Below, in pieces: positions 10,700 through 23,136 of a DNA stretch of 57,035 nucleotides. A program made the position numbers and the translations under genes. Location of the stretch: the NCBI GenBank assembly GCA_946188165.1, contig CAMHTW010000020.1, positions 1 through 57,035 on the forward strand. The letters are read 5' to 3'. The notes beneath the pieces were generated by a model. That model made no database searches. It worked only from the letters and a program-made list of their open reading frames with translations, and was not told where the DNA came from. The stretch is from an uncultured Prevotella sp. Lineage in GTDB: Bacteria > Bacteroidota > Bacteroidia > Bacteroidales > Bacteroidaceae. The first letter of the stretch is position 1. Each line of letters starts with the position of its first letter.

Positions 10700-11788
10700 T
10701 TAATCTCTATTGCCTGTGGCAATTTTTAAGAAGTAAGGCCATGTCCTTTTGGCCATGTTGTAGATACAGATGGTGATGAGGGTAACGGCTATGACACTTA
10801 TGAAGTACAAGCATATATGGGTTAAGTCTGAAAATCCTGAATGCAGGAGGACAGGTTTGCGGAATAATGCAACAATAGGCAGGTGTATACAATAGATAAA
10901 GAATGCCATATTAGATAATGACTTCCTAAATAGGTGATGTCTAATAAGAAAAATGCCAATAATGGGAATGCATATGATATTTGTAAGGATCGCTAGGCGA
11001 TGAATTTGTAAATTAAAAAAGACGGGGTAGATTGTGTTCGTGAGAATATCAGCTATCCCTAACATGAAGAATAGTATTACAAAGATGGTTTTGTGTTTAT
11101 CTATAATTTTCATTAAATTTGTGTTTGTTATAGGAAAGTAGGCTCCAAAACAAAAGGCCATGACAGATTCAATAGCCAACCAAAACCCAGGATATAGTAT
11201 CCATAAAAGACAAACGGCTAACGGCAGACTAAATTTGGTGTAATATATAATTACCTTGATGATAGGGCTTATAAGACATAGTAGAAAAAGGTTTCGAACG
11301 AACCACATTGGAGGATATACAGGTTTGCCATTACCATACCCCCAGTCGCCACAGTCCCAATATGCTCTGACATAATCAAGAAGGCCATATTCTGCTATGC
11401 TTTTTACCTGATTAATCATTAAGTCGTAACCGAGGGAAAAGGCAAAAATGAATGCCAAAAGCATAATGGTATTCCATAGGAAATAGGGGATGAGCAATGT
11501 CTGGATTCTACTTCTAATCTTTTCAGCGTATGTCTTGGAACTATAAAAGAACCATAGACCCGCAATGAAGAAGAATGCTGGGACACCGGTTTCTCCTATC
11601 CAAAGAGAAAAAGGATATATGCACTCAAAATATAGCTGATGATTCGGAATCGAAACAATTGTATGAGAATGATAGAAGATAATCGTTATGGCAAGTGGAA
11701 ATCTCATACATGCAACGGAGGATGACAGACGCTTGAAACTATCGTCGCATGTCTCCTTTTGGGTATTCTTGTCCGTTGTGGTTTCCAT
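10700..11788 (-). CDS. Acyltransferase 3 family membrane protein
   Basis: About 362 residues and ten membrane segments. The family opening RFPLAITIIFYHSHT includes the conserved Arg and His, and a PPMWFVRNLFLLCLISP block follows in the middle. It is predicted to O-acylate the polysaccharide or its lipid-linked unit at the inner membrane. Starts: I chose the ATG at 11788, which begins 4 bp after the upstream stop codon (11793) and has a GAGAAA stretch upstream; ATGs at 11803 and 11839 would overlap the glycosyltransferase gene. It pairs with the SGNH hydrolase next door and is only distantly related to the plus-strand acyltransferase at 6512. Confidence 0.85.
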   Translation of the reverse strand: METTTDKNTQKETCDDSFKRLSSSVACMRFPLAITIIFYHSHTIVSIPNHQLYFECIYPFSLWIGETGVPAFFFIAGLWFFYSSKTYAEKIRSRIQTLLIPYFLWNTIMLLAFIFAFSLGYDLMINQVKSIAEYGLLDYVRAYWDCGDWGYGNGKPVYPPMWFVRNLFLLCLISPIIKVIIYYTKFSLPLAVCLLWILYPGFWLAIESVMAFCFGAYFPITNTNLMKIIDKHKTIFVILFFMLGIADILTNTIYPVFFNLQIHRLAILTNIICIPIIGIFLIRHHLFRKSLSNMAFFIYCIHLPIVALFRKPVLLHSGFSDLTHICLYFISVIAVTLITICIYNMAKRTWPYFLKIATGNRD

Positions 11789-11792
11789 AATG

Positions 11793-13001
11793 CTATTTCT
11801 CATGAGTCGTATGTATGAATTCTGTATTCTTACGATCAATTTTCAGAATATTTAAAATCATTCTCCAAACAAGTTTAGGAAGGGATAATAACTTTCCGAA
11901 TACGGAATGACTGCGCAATTGCTTGGGTGTGGCGACGTATAGGGCAATGCAAATAGTGATGAACAAGCACCACCACTTAATATACCATGAGAGAGAAAAC
12001 AACAATGAGAATGCTGTCACCAAAAGGGACATGCCAAAAGCGCCAACCACAAGCATGGAGCGTGGTATTAATGCCTGTTGGATAGTCTTGTCAATATAAT
12101 CGATATTTGCAGCCAAAATGGCCTGTGGAATATAGGGTAATAGATTGAAAAGACTTTGTATTTGAACTGTCATCCAACGTAGACGTTGCTTCTGAAAATT
12201 GTCCTTATTTGAAACTTTTTCATCATAAACATGGATGCTTGGCTCGTATTTGATAAAAATACTGTCCTTAAGCAGAAGAGCTTCCAATTCTCGGTCCTCA
12301 CCTGCGGTGCTGAGTTTATAGACATTCTCCTTGAACCAATGGAAATCAAAACACATGCCAGAGCCAATCAGAGCTGACGATAAGCCAATACGGTTATGGG
12401 CCTTTCGGAAAATAGTGTTGTTGATTTCTTCACTGACACCGTCAAGCACAGCGATATCATTGTCCTTGTTCTTGGCACAACGGTGACACTGAATGGCTCG
12501 ATAGCCATGGGCGCAAGAGTCGTTCAGCTTCTGAAGAAAATCAGAGTTGACTACATTGTCGGCATCCATAATGATGATATAGTCGTAGTTTTCCTTAATC
12601 TGATCCATAGCATATTGCATAGCTTTGGCCTTGCTGCTTTTTTTGAATACGGGTTGCAACAGGGTGATGGGAAGTTCGCTCAAAGCCTGATTGGTTTCGG
12701 GCTTCATGTGATCGGAAATGACAGCGACATGGAAAGCATTGTAGGGGTAGTATTGTCCTAAAAATGTGCGAACAGAGGGGACTATAACGCGGTCTTCGTT
12801 ATAGGCTGGGTAGAGTACTAAAAAGGTGGAATACTCCTTGTCGCGCATTGCCAACTTTTGGCCTATTAAGAATTGCGTGAATTCATTGACACGTTTCTTC
12901 CATAAAGTAGAGACTAGCGCAAAGAAAAGGATATAGAGCGTGGAGGCTACTAATAACAGCCATAAAAGTATGTCGATGATATGTATGAAATGCCAAATCA
13001 T
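11793..13001 (-). CDS. Membrane-anchored processive-type glycosyltransferase 2
   Basis: 402 residues: an N-terminal membrane helix (about 8-32), a cytoplasmic GT2 domain, and a C-terminal hydrophobic region (about 310-360). Catalytic features of the cellulose-synthase-like clan are all present: DAD (146-148), the general-base ED (E235, D236) and QRLRW (272-276). It should transfer sugars from a nucleotide donor at the inner face of the membrane; true processivity cannot be judged. It is a tandem paralogue of the next gene (13010-14176), sharing the EEINNTIFRKAHNRIGLSSA-like block. Gap to that gene: 8 bp. Confidence 0.88.
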   Translation of the reverse strand: MIWHFIHIIDILLWLLLVASTLYILFFALVSTLWKKRVNEFTQFLIGQKLAMRDKEYSTFLVLYPAYNEDRVIVPSVRTFLGQYYPYNAFHVAVISDHMKPETNQALSELPITLLQPVFKKSSKAKAMQYAMDQIKENYDYIIIMDADNVVNSDFLQKLNDSCAHGYRAIQCHRCAKNKDNDIAVLDGVSEEINNTIFRKAHNRIGLSSALIGSGMCFDFHWFKENVYKLSTAGEDRELEALLLKDSIFIKYEPSIHVYDEKVSNKDNFQKQRLRWMTVQIQSLFNLLPYIPQAILAANIDYIDKTIQQALIPRSMLVVGAFGMSLLVTAFSLLFSLSWYIKWWCLFITICIALYVATPKQLRSHSVFGKLLSLPKLVWRMILNILKIDRKNTEFIHTTHEK

Positions 13002-13009
13002 AATGAAAG

Positions 13010-14176
13010 TTATTGTTTAAGATTGACAGCTTCGGTGATTTTTCTGCCCCATTTGAACTTATGCAGGATTGAACTTAATAATACAACAGGGATTTTGAAG
13101 AAGGTACTATTCCATTTTTCGTCAACTAGGTAGTTGGGAGTGGCCATAGCGAATATAAAGAGTACGATGGCGAAAAGCGCCCACCACTTGACGGCTAATG
13201 TAAAATAGATAAATGGCATGATGATACACATGAAAAGAATGATTGCCATCATGACCATGCGGGGAAGTATTATCCATTGTAATAATTTGTCAATCATGTC
13301 GTAATGTTTTTGAATGATGGCTTTCGGCAGATAGTGAAGATTATATAGTACAGCGCGCCACTGTTTTATAATCCAATTACGATGCTGCCGATTAAACTCC
13401 TCAGCTTGACGAACCTTTTCGCCATATACAACGATTTTGTCGAAATAGTCAATATAGATATGATGGCGAATAAGCAGAGCTTCTAATTCTTTATCGGCCC
13501 AATTGATTTTTGCAGTAAGTATCTGTTGTTTGAACCATTCAAAATTGAAGACCATACCTGAACTGGCCATAGCAGCTGAGAGACCTATGCTGATATGACC
13601 ACGACGGAAGATGGAATTGTTGATTTCTTCGAAAATTGCGGAGAGACGGGCAGACACCGTATCGCGATTAAATGACAGTTTATGAGCCTGGATGGCCTTT
13701 GTGCCTGCTGATTCGTATGCATCATTCATTTGTTCCAAAAATTCTGGTTCTACCACATCGCCAGCGTCCAGAATAATCACTGCGTCATATATTTTAAACT
13801 GTGGTAAGTTGTTAATGGCTAATTGCAAAGATTTTGTCCTGGTGCTCTTTGCAAAGTTAGGGGTAAGCAAGGTAACTGGTTGTTGAGCCAAATGGAACAT
13901 CGTGATTTCGTCTTCATGATCAGCAATGACCGTTACGTCAAATAAGCGTTGTGGATAGGTTTGTCCTAATATGGAGTTAACCGTCATCTCTATACTTTTA
14001 CCATTCTTGTATGATGGTATGAGAATGATAAAACGGTTCTGGTTCTTCGCCTTGGGCGTTTCACTATGCCGAGCAAACATAGAGGTAAACGCAAATACCC
14101 CAAGATATAGCACGGTTAATGCTACTAATATAAATATGATTAAATCGGTGTATGTCAATATAGTCCAGAAATCCAT
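13010..14176 (-). CDS. GT2 paralogue with altered catalytic motifs
   Basis: 388 residues with the same layout as the 11793-13001 gene: an N-terminal helix, a GT2 domain and C-terminal helices (about 290-340). The key motifs differ, however. DAD becomes DAGD (137-140), the ED pair becomes AD (227-228), and QxxRW becomes QHRNW (264-268). It may be an inactive or specialised partner of its neighbour, or may use other residues. Start: the ATG at 14176 is preferred; the in-frame TTG at 14185 would overlap the previous gene. The upstream neighbour's stop codon (14182-14184) lies in a heptanucleotide array directly before this start. Confidence 0.82.
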   Translation of the reverse strand: MDFWTILTYTDLIIFILVALTVLYLGVFAFTSMFARHSETPKAKNQNRFIILIPSYKNGKSIEMTVNSILGQTYPQRLFDVTVIADHEDEITMFHLAQQPVTLLTPNFAKSTRTKSLQLAINNLPQFKIYDAVIILDAGDVVEPEFLEQMNDAYESAGTKAIQAHKLSFNRDTVSARLSAIFEEINNSIFRRGHISIGLSAAMASSGMVFNFEWFKQQILTAKINWADKELEALLIRHHIYIDYFDKIVVYGEKVRQAEEFNRQHRNWIIKQWRAVLYNLHYLPKAIIQKHYDMIDKLLQWIILPRMVMMAIILFMCIIMPFIYFTLAVKWWALFAIVLFIFAMATPNYLVDEKWNSTFFKIPVVLLSSILHKFKWGRKITEAVNLKQ

Positions 14177-14181
14177 GCTTG

Positions 14182-15117
14182 TCAAATTGAGAATTGAGAA
14201 TTGAGAATTGAGAATTGAGAATTAATAAAATCACAAATACCTCTGCTGACTGCCTTGACTAAATCGAAGCGGCGTTGAAGCGTATATTTGAGGATGTCTC
14301 TGCAGACAACCACGCATATCTGATAGAGATAGGATAGGTATCGGGAGACTGTCTTATTATTGCGTTTGACGAACAACAGACGATTGCGCGTGATATAGTA
14401 GGTACGCAAAGGACTTTGTTGGCCAGTCGTCTGACTCTCTTTGTGATAAACCGTCATGGCCGGTTCATACCAAATGTCATAGCCAGCACGGCGCATCATC
14501 ATAGACCAGTCTAACTCTTCGTAGTATAGGAAGTAGCATTCAGGCATGAGCCCTGCCTTCTCAATGACTTCCCGTTTAACCATCATGGCTGCACCATGAG
14601 CGTATGGCGTCGGATGGGCTGTGTCATACTGTCCATGATCTGGTTCTCCACAGCCAATGGCTCGATTGCGTAATGTAATCTTGGATAATGGAGTATAGCC
14701 AGCGTATTGTATAGGATTGGCACCCCAAGAAAATCGAATTTTAGGAGATACCATTCCTATCTTTGGGGAACTTTCTAATCGATCAATCAATGGCTGAAAC
14801 ATCTTACATCTTACATCTTCCTTCTTACATCGCAGTAGCGTATCATTGTTTAGAAAGAAAAGGTATTTGCCGTGAGCGGCTTGAATGCCGAGATTATTGC
14901 CACCAGCAAAACCAAAATTCTCTTTGGAACGTATGACCTTTACTTGTGGATAACGTTGCTCAATGATTGTTGCTTCGTCTTCTTTGGATGCATTATCTAC
15001 CACGATTACCTCTAAGGACTCATCCTCTATAGGTAATGTGTCTATCAATTCACAGGTGTCTTTTAAACCGTTATAATTGACTGTGATTATAGATATTTGT
15101 ATATCCAACTGTACCAT
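14182..15117 (-). CDS. Glycosyltransferase family 2 (rhamnosyltransferase-like)
   Basis: 311 residues. Features of WbbL/RfbF-type enzymes: ISIITVNYNG, VVDNASKED, ENFGFAGGNN and the metal site NND (90-92), followed by the YYEELDWSMMMRRAGY block with the acidic catalytic pair. Two stretches look repeat-derived. Residues 96-106 come from a (TAAGATG)-like run in the loop after NND, and the last dozen residues (NSQFSIL repeated) are encoded by the AATTGAG array at 14185-14223. The start at 15117 overlaps the previous gene by 31 bp, which is unusually long, but no later ATG keeps the GT2 start. Confidence 0.88.
   Translation of the reverse strand: MVQLDIQISIITVNYNGLKDTCELIDTLPIEDESLEVIVVDNASKEDEATIIEQRYPQVKVIRSKENFGFAGGNNLGIQAAHGKYLFFLNNDTLLRCKKEDVRCKMFQPLIDRLESSPKIGMVSPKIRFSWGANPIQYAGYTPLSKITLRNRAIGCGEPDHGQYDTAHPTPYAHGAAMMVKREVIEKAGLMPECYFLYYEELDWSMMMRRAGYDIWYEPAMTVYHKESQTTGQQSPLRTYYITRNRLLFVKRNNKTVSRYLSYLYQICVVVCRDILKYTLQRRFDLVKAVSRGICDFINSQFSILNSQFSI
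14185..14223. repeat. Heptanucleotide array (AATTGAG)5
   Basis: Five full 7-bp units plus AATT. On the minus strand it is translated as the C-terminus of the GT2 gene, with the stop codon at its edge. Copy-number change would shift frame and alter the tail and the spacing to the next start. Confidence 0.9.
14799..14831. repeat. Heptanucleotide run inside a GT2 gene
   Basis: Four imperfect ATCTTAC-type units lie in the coding sequence of the GT2 gene at residues 96-106, giving the basic insert CKKEDVRCKM after the NND motif. Confidence 0.7.
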
Positions 15118-16640
15118 GGCTTTACTCTCATCTTTTCTATTTTCTCAAGTCGTAGTCGTTTTTTCTCTGCTTGTTCTGCTAATATCTTTGTTTCGTAAGA
15201 GATCCATTCCTTTTCGATATGCGGAAGAATGTATACAATTGTAAGTCCTCCGTAAAACGTTAATCCATTAGGAAATTGTGTGAGTACGCCATTGCCGTAG
15301 GCGCCTAACTGCATAGATACCATAGCACAACAGAAGCCCGCTCCAATACCTCGTAGTGATGGACTTTTTAATGTAAAAAAGACAATCCAACAAGCTCCCA
15401 AAAGCATAATACCCGTACATATTAAGAATATTGTAATACCAATAATGCCTGTATGAATCCATATGTACACATATTCAGAATCTGGAGGAACTGTCGCCAT
15501 AAAGGTATATTTGTTATTTGCGGGAACATTTCTAAAACCTACTGCTAATCCAATACCCCATGGCGCCTCTTTCATATATTTTTTCATGGCTTCTTGATTT
15601 ATTGAGCGTTGTGCTCTAGATGCATCATTCTTGTCGAATGCAGTACGCATACGACGAATGGATTGATTTCCGTTACCTATTGTTGTAAAAGCAAGAATAA
15701 AAACAAATAGACCAAATAGGATGGTAAATGGTATGGCAATTTTGAATGATTTAGATAAGAAAATATATGCCATAAAACCTGCCATTAAACAGGCAATTGC
15801 AGTTCGCGTTCCAGAGGGAAACATTGCCCATGCACAAGCGGCTCCGACAATCAAGAAGTAGTACTTGTATTTTTTAATTTTAGCTGTAATGCCAAATATA
15901 ATGAATGCCACAGCTGTTGAGGCAATTCCGATGCCAAAGGTTGCAGCATCACTATAAATAGAAAAATATCTTATGAGGGAACCTCCTTGCAATAAATGTG
16001 TCGACCGTCCACGACCTTGTAAGAAACCATTTTCTGCAGGAGTAAAGCCTATATGTTGTTGCTTCCATACCCAAAATACAGCAAATAAGGCTAATCCTCC
16101 CCATACATAAAGATATTGTGTCAGTAGTTTAGGACTTGATAGATATATTGTAAATACTATAAAGGCATACAGGAGTTGGAATGCCATCATTCGAGCTCCA
16201 GTATACCATCCGCCTATATCAATACCAATGTCACAGGTATCATTAAGAACCTCAAGTGTACAAAAACCGCACCAAATTATTAGTGTAAATAACATAGAAT
16301 TGGCACATCGTTCAAATTTTGCTTCTTTTACATCTATGATAGCTAGTGCGATGAGAATTATCTCAAACATTTCGTTATACATAGACATTGGGATACCTGT
16401 TGATGGAAAACTTTTCCATTGGACAAAATAGTTGATAATAATTAATGCCCAAAAGCATAACATTCTATAGTGAAATGCAGCTATAACAAGTAGAGCTAAT
16501 ATAGGGAGTGTACAAATAATTGCAAAGGGTGCAAAACCTGCATGAATGAACTGATAGATTGCCAGCAAAAACAGGAGGAGGAGTAATAATACTCTTCCTC
16601 CATGTTCGTTTGCGTATGTCTTAAACGCTGTGTTTGCCAT
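15087..16640 (-). CDS. O-antigen polymerase/ligase-like membrane protein
   Basis: 517 residues with about 11-12 predicted membrane segments, a large loop between late helices (around residues 325-390) and a charged C-terminal tail, the layout of Wzy polymerases and WaaL ligases. A GTRTAIACLMAGF segment in the middle is typical of the O-antigen ligase domain. Next to a Wzz/Wzc-like gene and a flippase, a polymerase role is most likely. Its ATG (16638-16640) abuts the co-polymerase stop codon without a gap, and its 3' end overlaps the GT2 start by 31 bp, so this part of the operon is tightly packed. Polymerase versus ligase cannot be separated from sequence alone. Confidence 0.82.
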   Translation of the reverse strand: MANTAFKTYANEHGGRVLLLLLLFLLAIYQFIHAGFAPFAIICTLPILALLVIAAFHYRMLCFWALIIINYFVQWKSFPSTGIPMSMYNEMFEIILIALAIIDVKEAKFERCANSMLFTLIIWCGFCTLEVLNDTCDIGIDIGGWYTGARMMAFQLLYAFIVFTIYLSSPKLLTQYLYVWGGLALFAVFWVWKQQHIGFTPAENGFLQGRGRSTHLLQGGSLIRYFSIYSDAATFGIGIASTAVAFIIFGITAKIKKYKYYFLIVGAACAWAMFPSGTRTAIACLMAGFMAYIFLSKSFKIAIPFTILFGLFVFILAFTTIGNGNQSIRRMRTAFDKNDASRAQRSINQEAMKKYMKEAPWGIGLAVGFRNVPANNKYTFMATVPPDSEYVYIWIHTGIIGITIFLICTGIMLLGACWIVFFTLKSPSLRGIGAGFCCAMVSMQLGAYGNGVLTQFPNGLTFYGGLTIVYILPHIEKEWISYETKILAEQAEKKRLRLEKIEKMRVKPWYSWIYKYL

Positions 16641-18824
16641 TTATCTTGCGTGTTCGTTTTCTACAGCGGTCAGACCTAATTGTGACATACGATAGACAAA
16701 GTTATTAAACTTTGAATAAGGAGGTAATTGACCAACAAATTCTTCTACGGCATAACGTTGAGCTTCTGTGAGATACATGAAGAGACTGTTCTTATGCTCT
16801 TCGTCTAACATGTCCTCAACTTCTTTAAGAGCTTTTTGATCTACGTCTTTCCAGGTACGGTTAGCACGAGTGACCATCAAGTTGATAGTTGCCATATTCA
16901 GGAGAGAAGGTGAGATGGAATTGTCATCGAGGTTAGGATATTCGATGATGGCAATTTCGTCAGGGAGAATGTCTGGGCAGAGATCCCTGATGTCTCTTGC
17001 CATAATAAATTTGCTGTCTTCAGCTAAGAAGTCCTCGTCGTAGGTGAGACGACGGACTTGTAGACCGATAGAAATCCAATAATTCTCTAATTCCTGAGCC
17101 AAATAACTTCTGCCATTGCCAGCATCGGTAGAGAGCAGGTTAAGCACATTTTGCTGACCTTCCTTGAAATGGGGAAGTAGCGCTTTGCTAAGTTGTCTAA
17201 GAGCCATGTCAGCAATAGTCTTATTGAAACGACGATAGCGCAAATTGCTTTCCTTGGGGAAACAACCCATAACTGGAACCTGAGTAATACGCTCTGAACG
17301 CATACGGTCGCGAAGGGTACGATCGAGCAATTCGATGAGGAAGAAATAGAGCGCTGTGAATAGAAAGGCCAGCATAAAGGCACCCAACAGTATCATCATG
17401 CGATTGGTTGGTTGGGCATTGAGTGGGAACATAGGTGGATTGAGCACACGCAAAGATGCAGTAGACATTTGGAGGTTGCGCTGGCGGAGTCGGGCAGCAT
17501 TTAAGGCTTTTAGCATCTCCATATAGTTACCTTCTATGAAACCAATATGGCGAGCCTTCCGATCCAATGTGGCACCAATGGGTGCGTAAAAGAGATATTG
17601 ACGGTCCAAATTTTGCTTCATGATGTCTGTTGCTGTCATTTGAGCCTTTGTTTTCTCAAGAAGTAATAATTGCTCTAACCAACGATCAATCATTTCATTG
17701 GCTTTGACACCCGTTTCTGTGCTATAGGTGGATGCTTCGATATCTTTCGTGAGTTGAGTGACGCGACCTGTTGCAACTTGAAGGTCTCGTTGAGCTTTTG
17801 CCAATTCCTGCTGAGATTCAGCATTATTCCCACCGCCTTCGCTGCTCATCAGGCGAAGATTGGAAATACGTGATTGTATGCGAGAGATATCCTTAACTTG
17901 ATTGGTAAATTCTTTGTTGGAGCGAATGACTTGGGCACGATTACCCAGTTGACGTTCTAAATAGTCCATCAAAGCTTTAGCAGTGGTGTAGTTCATTAGC
18001 TGATCATTGCGGAAATTTTGTTGTTGCGCTTCCAAATCTGCTACTTGTTTAGTTTGTTCTCCATAATTAATGATGCGTTTAGAAATATTATAGCGAATCA
18101 AATCGTCCTCAGCATTAGTTAAAATGCGATAAAGACGAGCTACTTCACGTTCGAAAAACTTGATGACATTGTTGGTTTCACCATAGCGTAACTGCTGGTA
18201 TTGGCGTGCAAACACTTCATTGAGGATGTCCAATGTGTTAAAGGCAATACCTGCATCGTTGCAAGAATAACCAATATCAATAATGTCACTCTTGTTAAGT
18301 TGAAGTACTTTCAATCGAGAAGTAATACTATTGATGCCAAACCATTGGTGATAATTTAACAAAGAAAACAGGTAATTATTAATGGATGGTTTTTCGTAAG
18401 CCTTCAGATTGGCATAAGTTGCCGATTCACTGTTGTGATTGATGAGAGCTTTCACGTCAGCAGGTACTGTCGCACTTAATTCCCGGAAATGTTGTGCAGA
18501 TATATAGTTGTTGTCCTTGTTCGGGTTACCATACATCATACAACGACCAAACAAACGGAGGGCCACCTCGTGAATCGTATTATCAGTGGTGATAATTAGC
18601 ATTAGGTTGGTTATGTTGGTTTGAGAATTGCCACCAACTGCACCAGAGCCACCTTCCAAATTGTAGCCTGTAATCATACCTGTATAGATGGTTGTATTGG
18701 CATCATAGATGCGTTCCATGTCGCGGGTCATAAACCAAGCGACAATCAATGCAATAAGTGGGAGAATCACTAAATACCAACGAATCTTATATAGAAATCG
18801 AACGAGATATCTGAATATATCCAT
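16641..18824 (-). CDS. Polysaccharide co-polymerase (Wzz/Wzc-like) with degenerate kinase-like domain
   Basis: 727 residues. A first membrane helix (about 17-32), a large periplasmic region with coiled-coil segments (about 200-390), a second helix (about 475-498) and a cytoplasmic C-terminal domain match Wzc-type co-polymerases, which set chain length and link to export. The C-terminal domain resembles a BY-kinase P-loop (STDAGNGRSY, 565-574), but the canonical GK[ST] lysine is Arg, and there is no tyrosine cluster at the end. It is probably not an active tyrosine kinase in the classical way. It lies between the TolC-like gene and the polymerase, as co-polymerases usually do. Confidence 0.85.
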   Translation of the reverse strand: MDIFRYLVRFLYKIRWYLVILPLIALIVAWFMTRDMERIYDANTTIYTGMITGYNLEGGSGAVGGNSQTNITNLMLIITTDNTIHEVALRLFGRCMMYGNPNKDNNYISAQHFRELSATVPADVKALINHNSESATYANLKAYEKPSINNYLFSLLNYHQWFGINSITSRLKVLQLNKSDIIDIGYSCNDAGIAFNTLDILNEVFARQYQQLRYGETNNVIKFFEREVARLYRILTNAEDDLIRYNISKRIINYGEQTKQVADLEAQQQNFRNDQLMNYTTAKALMDYLERQLGNRAQVIRSNKEFTNQVKDISRIQSRISNLRLMSSEGGGNNAESQQELAKAQRDLQVATGRVTQLTKDIEASTYSTETGVKANEMIDRWLEQLLLLEKTKAQMTATDIMKQNLDRQYLFYAPIGATLDRKARHIGFIEGNYMEMLKALNAARLRQRNLQMSTASLRVLNPPMFPLNAQPTNRMMILLGAFMLAFLFTALYFFLIELLDRTLRDRMRSERITQVPVMGCFPKESNLRYRRFNKTIADMALRQLSKALLPHFKEGQQNVLNLLSTDAGNGRSYLAQELENYWISIGLQVRRLTYDEDFLAEDSKFIMARDIRDLCPDILPDEIAIIEYPNLDDNSISPSLLNMATINLMVTRANRTWKDVDQKALKEVEDMLDEEHKNSLFMYLTEAQRYAVEEFVGQLPPYSKFNNFVYRMSQLGLTAVENEHAR

Positions 18825-19854: not shown

Positions 19855-21054
19855 CTATACGTTCTCTTTCTGCTTGAAGGCAAAGAAAGTACGAAGAATG
19901 ATCTTCATGTCGAGCATGAAATTATAGGTCTGACCGTATGTGATGTCAAGCTGCTTGCGCTCCTCGGCACTCATAGTGCCACCCTTGCCGCGCTCCTCAA
20001 CCTGCCACAAGCCAGTAAGACCGGCTGGAGCCATAAAGCGGTCGATGCTCTTATCGGCAGTGAGTTTCTCGGCCTCGTAGAGTGGGAGAGGACGGTTGCC
20101 GACAACAGACATGTCGCCTTTGAGGATATTGAACAGCTGCGGGAGCTCGTCGATGCTGTATTTGCGGATGAAGCGTCCCACCTTGGTGACACGTGGGTCG
20201 TTCTCGATCTTGATAAACGCATTGTTGATTTCTTCTTCCTTCTGTTTGCTGAAATCGCTTTCGGCAACAACGAAATCGTCACCAACCAACATGATTTCCT
20301 CGTCGCTGATCATCATTTCGGACTCCATCCCCATATCAAACATGGCTTGTTCTGCCTGGTCTCCTAAAGGAGCAACAATGGTTTTGTGTTCCTCTTGTTC
20401 GTGAGCAGTGTACTGATTATGATCCTTGCTCAACTCCTGTAAGCGCTGTTCTGCGTCAACATACATGCTACGGAATTTCAGGAAGTCGAAGATGGTGTAG
20501 TTGGTGCCAACACGCTTGGACTTGAACACAATTGGTCCCTTACTCTCTAATCTGATAGCGATAGCCGTTAGGATAAAGATGGGCGAAGTAATAATAATAG
20601 CCAATATCGAGAACACGATATCAAACATACGCTTCCATACCGGAATCTTGAATTTCAGCATGTGATATCTTGGGCGCTCATCATCAAAAAGAATGCTCTC
20701 ACGGTCGGAGATGAACTGAATTTTCTTGTTCAACTCAGTAACAGTTGCCCCACGACCTATCGTGTCGTTGATGCCACACTTCATATAAACATCACGCTCC
20801 TCGTCGGTCATGGGATCGGTCATGAGAATGACATAAACACCGGGGGACTTCTTCTTCAGATAGGTGATAGCAGTAATGTCCTCAGAGCGTACGTTGCGTT
20901 CAAAGAACACGATGAAGTGCTCATTGGCGACATGAGGCGTACAAATCTGGGCGGCATCCTTGTAAGCACTGGTCATACGAACCAGCTGACCTGGGATGTA
21001 CTTAAGTCGTTCCTGCGTCTTGGGGTTACTACCTAAATATACAACACCTATCAT
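19855..21054 (-). CDS. Initiating sugar-phosphate transferase with pseudo-receiver N-terminus
   Basis: 399 residues. The C-terminal half is a bacterial sugar transferase (WbaP/WcaJ type) that moves sugar-1-phosphate from a nucleotide sugar to undecaprenyl phosphate, starting the repeat unit. Visible features are one membrane segment (about 143-166), the KFRSM motif (203-207) and the [26 protein letters not shown] block (284-309). Unusually, residues 1-115 have the alternating strand/helix pattern of a response-regulator receiver, but the acidic pocket is lost: the phospho-Asp position reads E52 and the usual Lys is replaced by Arg. A very acidic insert (about 213-280) splits the catalytic domain. 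It lies 32 bp downstream of a true receiver-only protein, suggesting that the two interact. Confidence 0.88.
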
Positions 21055-21086
21055 ACTATTTATTAATAATGTACGTTAGATTATGA

Positions 21087-21455
21087 TTAATTGGGAAGAA
21101 TCTTTTTAACACGAATCTTGAGCTCCATTGGATTGAAGGGCTTCACGATGTAGTCGACGGCACCAATCTCCAGCAAGCGGATACGTTCACTGGTGGAATC
21201 CTCACTGCTCAGCATAATGACAGGGATGTGACGGAAAAGCTCGTTCTGCTTAATCCATTCCAGAAAATCGTCGCCACGCATGCCCGGCATACGGATGTCG
21301 GAAATAATCAAATCGGGGGTGTTGCCTGCCTGAAGCCACTTTACACCTTGCAACCCGTCAGGGAGCCACTGAACGTCGTAATCACTCATCAAATAGATGG
21401 AGAGCACCTTTGCGATGGTCTCTTTGTCGTCAAGTATAAGTATTTTCTTTTTCAT
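21087..21455 (-). CDS. CheY-like single-domain response regulator
   Basis: 122 residues, one receiver domain and no output domain. All phosphorylation residues are visible: the acidic pair in ILDD (9-10), the phospho-Asp in IISDIRMPG (about 53), the Ser/Thr switch in IMLSSED and the Lys in VKPFNP. It is the first gene of the long minus-strand polysaccharide operon, behind its own promoter (21502-21534). With no DNA-binding domain it must work by protein contact; the pseudo-receiver transferase next door is the obvious partner. No histidine kinase is in the window. Confidence 0.92.
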   Translation of the reverse strand: MKKKILILDDKETIAKVLSIYLMSDYDVQWLPDGLQGVKWLQAGNTPDLIISDIRMPGMRGDDFLEWIKQNELFRHIPVIMLSSEDSTSERIRLLEIGAVDYIVKPFNPMELKIRVKKILPN

Positions 21456-21645: not shown

Positions 21646-23136
21646 ATGGCAAACAGATATTTATTAGGTTTTGATGTCGGCAGCTCTTCAGTGAAGGCAT
21701 CATTGGTAAATGCAGACAGTGGTAAGTGTGTGGCAACAGCTTTCTTCCCTGAAAAGGAAGCGCCCATTATGGCCGTAAAGGCCGGTTGGGCTGAACAGGA
21801 TCCCCAGATGTGGTGGGACAATGCTAAATTGAGTCTGAAGAAGATTATGGCTGAGGCTGGAGCCACTGGTGAGGAAATCAAAGCCATTGGTATCTCTTAT
21901 CAGATGCATGGCTTAGTATGTGTGGACAAGAATCTGAAGGCACTTCGTCCTTCGATTATCTGGTGTGATTCGCGTGCTGTACCTTATGGCGAGAAAGCTT
22001 TCAAGGATTTAGGTGGTGATCAGTGCCTGAGTCATCTGCTGAATTCTCCTGGTAACTTTACGGCTGCCAAGTTGGCATGGGTTAAGGAGAATGAGCCGGA
22101 GTTGTATAGTCAGATCTATAAGGTCATGTTGCCTGGCGACTATATTGCCATGCGTCTTTCTGGTGTTGCTAATACAACGGTAAGTGGTCTGTCTGAGGGT
22201 ATGTTCTGGGACTTTAAGAACAATCAGGTGGCAGACTTCCTAATGAAATACTATGGATTCGATGCATCTTTGATTGCAGATATCGTGCCTACTTTCGCTG
22301 AGCAGAGTGTGGTCAGTGCAGAGGCTGCGGCAGAACTGGGTTTGAAGGCTGGTACACCGATTACCTATCGTGGTGGTGACCAACCAAACAATGCCCTGTC
22401 GCTGAATGTGCTGAATCCTGGTGAGATTGCAGCTACAGCTGGTACTTCAGGTGTGGTGTATGGCGTGCTGGGTGAAGTCAATTACGACAAGCAAAGTCGA
22501 GTAAATACCTTTGCACATGTGAATCATACCGCTGACCAGACTCGTCTGGGTGTGCTGCTCTGTATCAATGGTACAGGTATCTTGAATGCATGGACGCATC
22601 GTAACATCACGCCTGAGATTGGCTATGCCGAGATGAATGATTTGGCTGCTCAAGCTCCTATCGGCAGTGAGGGCGTTACGATTATCCCATTCGGCAATGG
22701 TGCAGAACGTGTACTTGGGAATAAGGAAATTGGTTGCTCCATCAACGGTGTTAACTTCAATAAGCACTCGAAGGCTCATTTGGTGCGTGCTGCCCAAGAG
22801 GGTATCGTCTTCTCATTCTGCTATGGTATGGAAATTATGCAGCAGATGGGTATGGATATCAAGAAAATTCATGCTGGTAAAGCCAACATGTTCTTGAGCC
22901 CACTGTTCCGTGATACGTTAGCGGGCGTGAGTGGTGCAACCATCGAGTTGTATGATACGGATGGTTCTGTTGGTGCAGCCAAGGGTGCTGGAATTGGCGC
23001 TGGCATCTATGCTAATGCTGATGAAGCCTTTGCTTCTTTGGAGAAGTTGCAGGTGATTGAGCCGAAGGCTGCTGACCAAGCTGCATACGCTGAGGCCTAT
23101 GCACGCTGGAAGGAAGTACTGAAAGCAAAGTTGTAA
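21646..23136 (+). CDS. xylB: Xylulokinase (FGGY family)
   Basis: Phosphorylates D-xylulose to xylulose 5-phosphate, feeding xylose into the pentose phosphate pathway. The 496 residues match the family length. Visible features are the N-terminal phosphate loop FDVGSSSVK (9-17), the substrate-binding ISYQMHGLV segment, the catalytic Asp region PITYRGGDQPNNA and the C-terminal GSVGAAKGAGIGAG loop. It stands alone on the plus strand, with no xylA or transporter beside it. It ends 6 bp from the convergent butyrate kinase gene. Confidence 0.93.
   Translation: MANRYLLGFDVGSSSVKASLVNADSGKCVATAFFPEKEAPIMAVKAGWAEQDPQMWWDNAKLSLKKIMAEAGATGEEIKAIGISYQMHGLVCVDKNLKALRPSIIWCDSRAVPYGEKAFKDLGGDQCLSHLLNSPGNFTAAKLAWVKENEPELYSQIYKVMLPGDYIAMRLSGVANTTVSGLSEGMFWDFKNNQVADFLMKYYGFDASLIADIVPTFAEQSVVSAEAAAELGLKAGTPITYRGGDQPNNALSLNVLNPGEIAATAGTSGVVYGVLGEVNYDKQSRVNTFAHVNHTADQTRLGVLLCINGTGILNAWTHRNITPEIGYAEMNDLAAQAPIGSEGVTIIPFGNGAERVLGNKEIGCSINGVNFNKHSKAHLVRAAQEGIVFSFCYGMEIMQQMGMDIKKIHAGKANMFLSPLFRDTLAGVSGATIELYDTDGSVGAAKGAGIGAGIYANADEAFASLEKLQVIEPKAADQAAYAEAYARWKEVLKAKL

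Follow-up and report, generated by a model that had tools for sequence, protein, structure and literature searches.

In the window analysed here, a stretch of 57,035 nucleotides from an uncultured Prevotella sp. (assembly GCA_946188165.1, contig CAMHTW010000020.1), the gene of a stand-alone receiver (REC) lies directly before that of a monotopic phosphoglycosyl transferase (PGT) with an N-terminal pseudo-receiver (pREC). By analogy with a Myxococcus system we propose, with a probability of roughly 0.6, that phosphorylated REC binds the pseudo-receiver PGT and switches on the first step of polysaccharide synthesis. We infer this mechanism from the asymmetry between the two receiver-type domains, the phosphorylation site being kept in REC and lost in the pseudo-receiver, and from the Myxococcus precedent.

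The receiver, the transferase and its additional domains

The minus-strand gene run begins at 21455 and encodes REC, the transferase, a protein resembling outer-membrane efflux proteins (OEP), a chain-length protein, a Wzy-like polymerase, glycosyltransferases and an acyltransferase, in this order (Table 1). A divergent gene at 21646-23136, 190 bp upstream of REC, appears sugar-kinase-like on reading by eye. Toward the far end of the same-strand run lies a HipA-like gene (1604-2854, HipA_C 2.9e-49). The C-terminus of the chain-length protein (16641-18824) has a Walker-A-like GNGRS lacking the Lys and gives no Pfam kinase match; its sequence, read by eye, suggests a decayed tyrosine-kinase domain.

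Table 1. Features of the receiver-transferase locus and of the genes that follow it, in positions of the window
Feature	Position	Strand	Basis
REC, stand-alone receiver, 122 aa, complete phosphorylation site	21087..21455	-	Response_reg 2.1e-26; D9, D10, D53, S83, K105
D53 codon of REC (phospho-acceptor)	21297..21299	-	sequence; D in 178/185 paired RECs
REC-transferase gap, 32 bp	21055..21086	-	sequence
Monotopic PGT with N-terminal pseudo-receiver, 399 aa	19855..21054	-	Bac_transf 7.4e-60; D145-x12-P158, D302-E303
Pseudo-receiver (pREC) domain, residues 1-125	20680..21054	-	AlphaFold2 pLDDT 91.7; profile and fold matches to receivers
E52 codon, phospho-Asp position of pseudo-receiver	20899..20901	-	alignment: E in 156/185, D in 11
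Catalytic-domain start with re-entrant-helix motif, residues 139-165	20560..20640	-	DX12P motif D145/P158
Acidic insert in catalytic domain, residues 213-279	20218..20418	-	sequence, charge and spacing comparison
Catalytic dyad D302-E303	20146..20151	-	DELPQL at 302; dyad role as for PglC in PMC12802240
GNRP family signature (GPRP in ordinary PGTs)	20089..20100	-	184/185 paired members
OEP-like protein, 327 aa	18840..19823	-	OEP 2.9e-11; homologue after pair in at least 103/185
Wzc/Wzz-like chain-length protein, 727 aa	16641..18824	-	pepcterm_ChnLen 5.8e-15, under its cut-off; Wzz 0.052
Wzy/O-antigen-ligase-like polymerase	15087..16640	-	Wzy_C 6.5e-13
Three family-2-type glycosyltransferases	11793..15117	-	domain search
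Acyltransferase, same gene run	10700..11839	-	Acyl_transf_3 1.1e-23

REC belongs to the receiver family, matching PF00072 over residues 5-116 with 92.7 bits (cut-off 30.2), and in the alignment the acidic pair, the phospho-Asp, the Ser/Thr and the Lys are all in place. A Pfam search found no output domain in it. Together with the Response_reg match, the full set of phosphorylation residues bears out the preliminary description of this gene as a complete receiver without an output domain. The source genome has 13 places that match REC at E <= 0.001, REC itself included. Across the 185 REC-PGT pairs described below, D53 is kept in 178 and S/T83 and K105 in all, while the other seven show no Asp at position 53. 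REC is conserved far more tightly than its PGT partner: among 30 Prevotella-like pairs its median pairwise identity is 97.5%, against 83.9% for the catalytic domain, 63.3% for the N-domain and 53.7% for the insert; the OEP, available for 27 of the 30, has a median of 61.8%. The REC frame is shortened in three of the 185 pairs (L071, L233 and L235), the genomes of L233 and L235 having an in-frame TGA inside REC. In L071 (1128-1424) the frame is just 99 aa long and adjoins an IS66 transposase, so that this REC may have been broken by insertion.

The transferase scores 202 bits against PF02397 (cut-off 27) and, having the DX12P motif and the DE dyad as well, is a member of the monotopic PGTs. Its sequence predicts the transfer of a sugar-1-phosphate to undecaprenyl phosphate. 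It remains under the cut-off of all ten listed NCBIfam transferase models (TIGR03025, 240 of 295.6, and TIGR03023, 205 of 411, for example), and its top named match, at 78% identity, comes from a Prevotella sp. assembly from dairy-cattle reticulum (L117). GPRP, found in 59 of 64 ordinary PGTs, is replaced by GNRP in all but one of the paired ones. Judged by the family scores and the predicted fold, the enzyme does not have the build of a large monoPGT, with an N-terminal membrane bundle and a DUF; the residues before the catalytic domain were modelled as a single receiver-like fold.

For this N-domain AlphaFold2 predicts a (beta-alpha)5 receiver fold, and the fold matches of the model agree. 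The family profile of the domain matches a CheY homologue at 1.7e-13, which establishes sequence kinship to receivers, and Response_reg is matched by the N-domain in 24 of 67 members, the window's own domain alone giving no match. With E52, G8-S9 and R101 at the positions of the phospho-Asp, the acidic pair and the Lys, it is not a phosphorylatable receiver; its predicted fold and replaced phospho-Asp place it among the aspartate-less receivers as defined in PMC4395418. Across the 185 pairs, the position corresponding to D9 is occupied by Gly in 171 and the Lys position by Lys in 13. The earlier claims that the transferase N-terminus is receiver-like and that it lacks the acidic pocket and the phospho-Asp both hold, the first on the confidently predicted fold and profile matches, the second on the alignment. 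A remnant of the DUF of large PGTs was also considered as the origin of the N-domain; this is disfavoured because the profile, Pfam and fold matches all point to receivers.

The acidic insert that had been said to interrupt the catalytic domain is likewise present, at residues 213-279. Between FRSM and DPR the paired PGTs have a median of 74 residues (measured in 162 of 185, with L136 visibly mis-measured), versus 26 in ordinary PGTs (measured in 29 of 64). The insert is not universal, since the spacing is below 40, like that of ordinary PGTs, in 15 of the 162 (L133, L135, L139-L144 and L289-L295). From NQY to A279 the net charge is negative in 165 of the 185, with a median of -8. A CxxC...C...C arrangement occurs in the insert in at least 30 of the 162 measured paired PGTs and at least 11 of 22 measured among 29 short PGTs without the N-domain, both counts being lower bounds, and in none of the 29 measured ordinary PGTs. 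Its carriers include L075, L087, L090, L101, L128 and L274; in Prevotella- and Bacteroides-like members this place is taken by an acidic stretch. On inspection of the sequences, the Cys and the acidic form seem to align with each other over the second half of the insert, up to a closing (C/S/A)E and aromatic residue; metal binding by the Cys4 form is a guess. Seven short PGT paralogues of 267-270 aa (L278-L284, in genomes G388, G395, G407, G412, G496 and G508) stand alongside a paired full-length PGT; they have no N-domain and no REC seen upstream, and six of them carry the Cys4 insert, the seventh being unmeasured.

Conservation of the gene pair and the search for kinases

A REC gene lies directly upstream of 185 of 188 non-identical full-length PGT homologues, 184 of them by rule and one (L237) whose start was set too early. 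Full-length was taken as at least 255 bits on the A1 profile and at least 350 aa, identical proteins were counted once, and five located places (G068, G572:C85, G1003, G917 and G844) were left out of the set. In a first homologue set the count was 97 of 99. The two genes are separated by a median of 13 bp, and by 60 bp or less in 171 of 184. REC is missing upstream of all 64 ordinary PGT genes, although for four of these the available upstream sequence was shorter than 60 bp. The three exceptions to the pairing are L081, whose sequence ends 272 bp upstream, L254, with no REC in 1488 bp, and L097, with a kinase gene instead. In L097 (2831-3865) this gene encodes a histidine kinase and is followed immediately, without an intervening REC, by a pseudo-receiver PGT whose phospho position is occupied by Asp.

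Among 298 genomes of the family, the PGT profile matches 86 and the REC profile 89, with one copy each, and all of the 86 are within the 89 (Fisher p 3.8e-72, uncorrected for kinship among the genomes). The preliminary description had asked for a search for the same gene pair across genomes, and these counts show the pair to be conserved. The three genomes with REC only are L296, L297 and L298 (G041, G106 and G231). In L296 and L298, REC has no adjoining PGT and it looks as if the PGT was lost; the REC of L297 is absent from the list of open reading frames owing to a filter. At E <= 1e-60, short forms included, the PGT profile matches 59 of 344 order-level and 40 of 392 phylum-level genomes, hence the system is widespread but patchy. 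An OEP homologue follows the pair in at least 103 of the 185 loci, and the pairing of REC and PGT seems to outlast operon changes. In Bacteroides fragilis L122 (10001-12716) the frames after the pair, read by eye, are unlike the OEP and the chain-length protein; the pair is thus not tied to one operon type.

In most pairs no kinase gene was seen nearby, within flanks of mostly 1.5 kb. A histidine-kinase-type gene lies on the same strand within about 1.6 kb upstream in six of the 185 (L128, L072, L073, L271, L125 and L127), a count that is too low because of these short flanks; in L125 an opposite-strand gene separates kinase and pair. The kinase gene is farther away in L130 and L123, HATPase-receiver-Hpt proteins are encoded upstream of two short PGTs with REC (L103 and L105), and L126 has an NtrC-like regulator. 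Of the 33 HATPase_c matches in the source genome, 32 exceed the cut-off and not all are necessarily kinases; none lies on the contig of the window.

Proposed control of the transferase and its alternatives

Schwabe et al. (2025, PMC12802240) reported that in Myxococcus xanthus the phosphorylated EpsW stimulates EpsZ. According to that paper, proximity labelling places EpsW-P beside EpsZ, co-expression with EpsW in Salmonella raises EpsZ activity, and modelling points to promotion of the EpsZ dimer by EpsW. In the mechanism proposed here, a histidine kinase, probably encoded elsewhere, would phosphorylate REC, which we infer to be the phosphorylated partner. Phosphorylated REC would then dock on the PGT, most likely on the fused pseudo-receiver. 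The latter, not normally phosphorylatable, could be the constant half of the assembly, there for docking or dimerisation, and its Glu might keep it in an active-like state. Contact of phosphorylated REC with the pseudo-receiver and/or the catalytic domain would stabilise the active PGT, as has been proposed for EpsW-P and EpsZ, and the active enzyme would start surface-polysaccharide synthesis, loading undecaprenyl phosphate with a sugar-phosphate as its sequence predicts. Activation, not inhibition, is assumed because of the EpsW precedent. The preliminary description had suggested direct, phosphorylation-dependent control of this first step; of its conditions, the receiver fold of the N-domain (by prediction and profile) and the conservation of the pair both hold, and the EpsW-EpsZ precedent makes such control plausible.

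Several computations addressed an interface between the two proteins, and none located one. A model of the REC and PGT of L119, linked by 10 residues of intergenic read-through and built on a 76-row alignment, reached a pTM of 0.60 and gives no interface score. PleD carries tandem receivers, one phosphorylated and one serving as adaptor, the active and the inactive one working together. The fold matches of the N-domain include PleD, and the present pair resembles it in having one active and one inactive receiver; unlike in PleD, these are on two polypeptides, and a PleD-like placement of the two was not seen in the linked model (rmsd 13.9 over 249 residues). Conservation is no higher on the alpha4-beta5-alpha5 face than elsewhere: its value is reached by 30 of 115 circular shifts in the 185 pairs and, among the 30 Prevotella-like pairs, by 37 of 115.

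Mean-field DCA on the 185 pairs gave scattered inter-protein scores; some of the top within-domain pairs join neighbouring strands, as judged by eye without coordinates. The REC-pREC couplings are stronger than after re-pairing within clades (reached by none of 25 nulls). Those of REC and of pREC with the control gene OEP (103 loci) are so too; the signal is therefore taken as shared history, and residue coupling was dropped as evidence for a REC-pREC contact. REC and PGT are joined in at least five proteins among 120 listed of 2513 matches. P0124, P0125 and P0126 are near-identical joined proteins with different junctions, P0122 has a cut REC, each cluster of joined proteins consists of a single member on a single contig, and both receivers are whole only in P0124 and P0180. 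Such natural fusions were rejected as evidence, being mostly junction slips or rare alleles.

It is possible, if unlikely, that REC acts directly on the catalytic domain or the insert. The pseudo-receiver would then serve only for homodimerisation or stability, in the place that the DUF occupies in large PGTs. REC genes stand upstream of nine of the 29 short PGTs, three of these being damaged or of unclear start; the other six (L103, L105, L109, L111, L129 and L137) speak for direct action, since a PGT evidently does not need the pseudo-receiver to keep its REC partner. The published modelling (PMC12802240), in which EpsW contacts the catalytic domain of EpsZ as well as its DUF, also fits this view, as does the top-20 mean of the REC-catalytic couplings, which lies above re-pairing (reached by none of 25 nulls) while their maximum does not (9 of 25). 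However, the couplings are unspecific, and nine of 29 short forms compare with 185 of 188 PGTs that have the N-domain. We prefer docking on the pseudo-receiver; the same six proteins show that contact with the catalytic part may also be important.

There is only a slim chance that phosphorylated REC inhibits the PGT, as a brake and not an accelerator. In favour of this, REC is kept in three genomes without a PGT match. On the other side, its presence in all 86 genomes with the PGT is what would be expected of a needed activator, and EpsW is an activator according to PMC12802240.

Receiver-like parts of TadZ/CpaE probably serve localisation. That REC merely shares the operon and regulates something else (transcription, the chain-length protein or another enzyme), the pseudo-receiver being such an unrelated localisation domain, is improbable, since REC adjoins the PGT more constantly than the OEP does and is beside none of the ordinary PGTs.

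A broader form of activation through the pseudo-receiver, to which we give somewhat less than even odds, is a two-receiver switch found throughout the Bacteroidota. A phosphorylatable REC and a Glu-locked pseudo-receiver on a GNRP-type PGT would heterodimerise, so that two-component signals would directly gate the commitment of undecaprenyl phosphate, and the insert, in its Cys4 form in some relatives or its acidic form in Bacteroides and Prevotella, would be a second input. How bacteria share scarce undecaprenyl phosphate among competing glycan pathways is a question raised in PMC12802240. If the proposal is true, Bacteroidota, including gut Bacteroides and Prevotella, would set the use of this carrier at the enzyme level via two-component signalling and not by transcription alone. 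REC, the kinase and the fused domain form a small, directly testable system.

Comparison with known systems

No description of the Bacteroidota pair of REC and pseudo-receiver PGT, its Glu signature, the GNRP mark or the Cys4/acidic insert was found in searches of an open-access library that does not include O'Toole et al. (2021). A paper on Bacteroidota O-glycosylation (PMC12871550) has no wording on receivers, response regulators or phosphotransferases and no word formed on initiat-, and the main text of PMC12802240 has no word beginning with "bacteroid". Small monoPGTs with added regulatory domains are said to include receivers (O'Toole et al. 2021, PNAS, as cited in PMC12802240), and the protein described here is like these in joining a small monoPGT to a receiver-type domain.

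As in the aspartate-less receivers surveyed in PMC4395418, the N-domain combines a receiver fold with the loss of the phospho-Asp and has Glu in its place, the commonest replacement there (26%). The first acidic residue is kept in 65% of the aspartate-less receivers of that survey, whereas here Gly predominates at this position. The passages of PMC4395418 on aspartate-less receivers name no phosphoglycosyl transferase output; here the output is a PGT. The catalytic domain differs from those of PglC and WbaP in its GNRP in place of GPRP, its mostly long insert and the N-terminal pseudo-receiver.

The general principle, a single-domain receiver controlling an initiating PGT, is already published for EpsW and EpsZ (PMC12802240). 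REC and the PGT stay below the NCBIfam cut-offs for EpsW and EpsZ (59.8 of 200 and 162.9 of 800 bits), and by score the two proteins are not members of these families. If the present proposal is true, the Myxococcus idea would reach another phylum with a different, simpler architecture. In both systems a pathway of the Wzx/Wzy type would start with a monotopic PGT, and this enzyme is proposed to be bound and activated by a single-domain response regulator in its phosphorylated form. As described in PMC12802240, EpsZ is a large PGT with a four-helix membrane bundle and a cytoplasmic DUF; the enzyme described here, in contrast, has a pseudo-receiver and a small-type catalytic domain with an insert.
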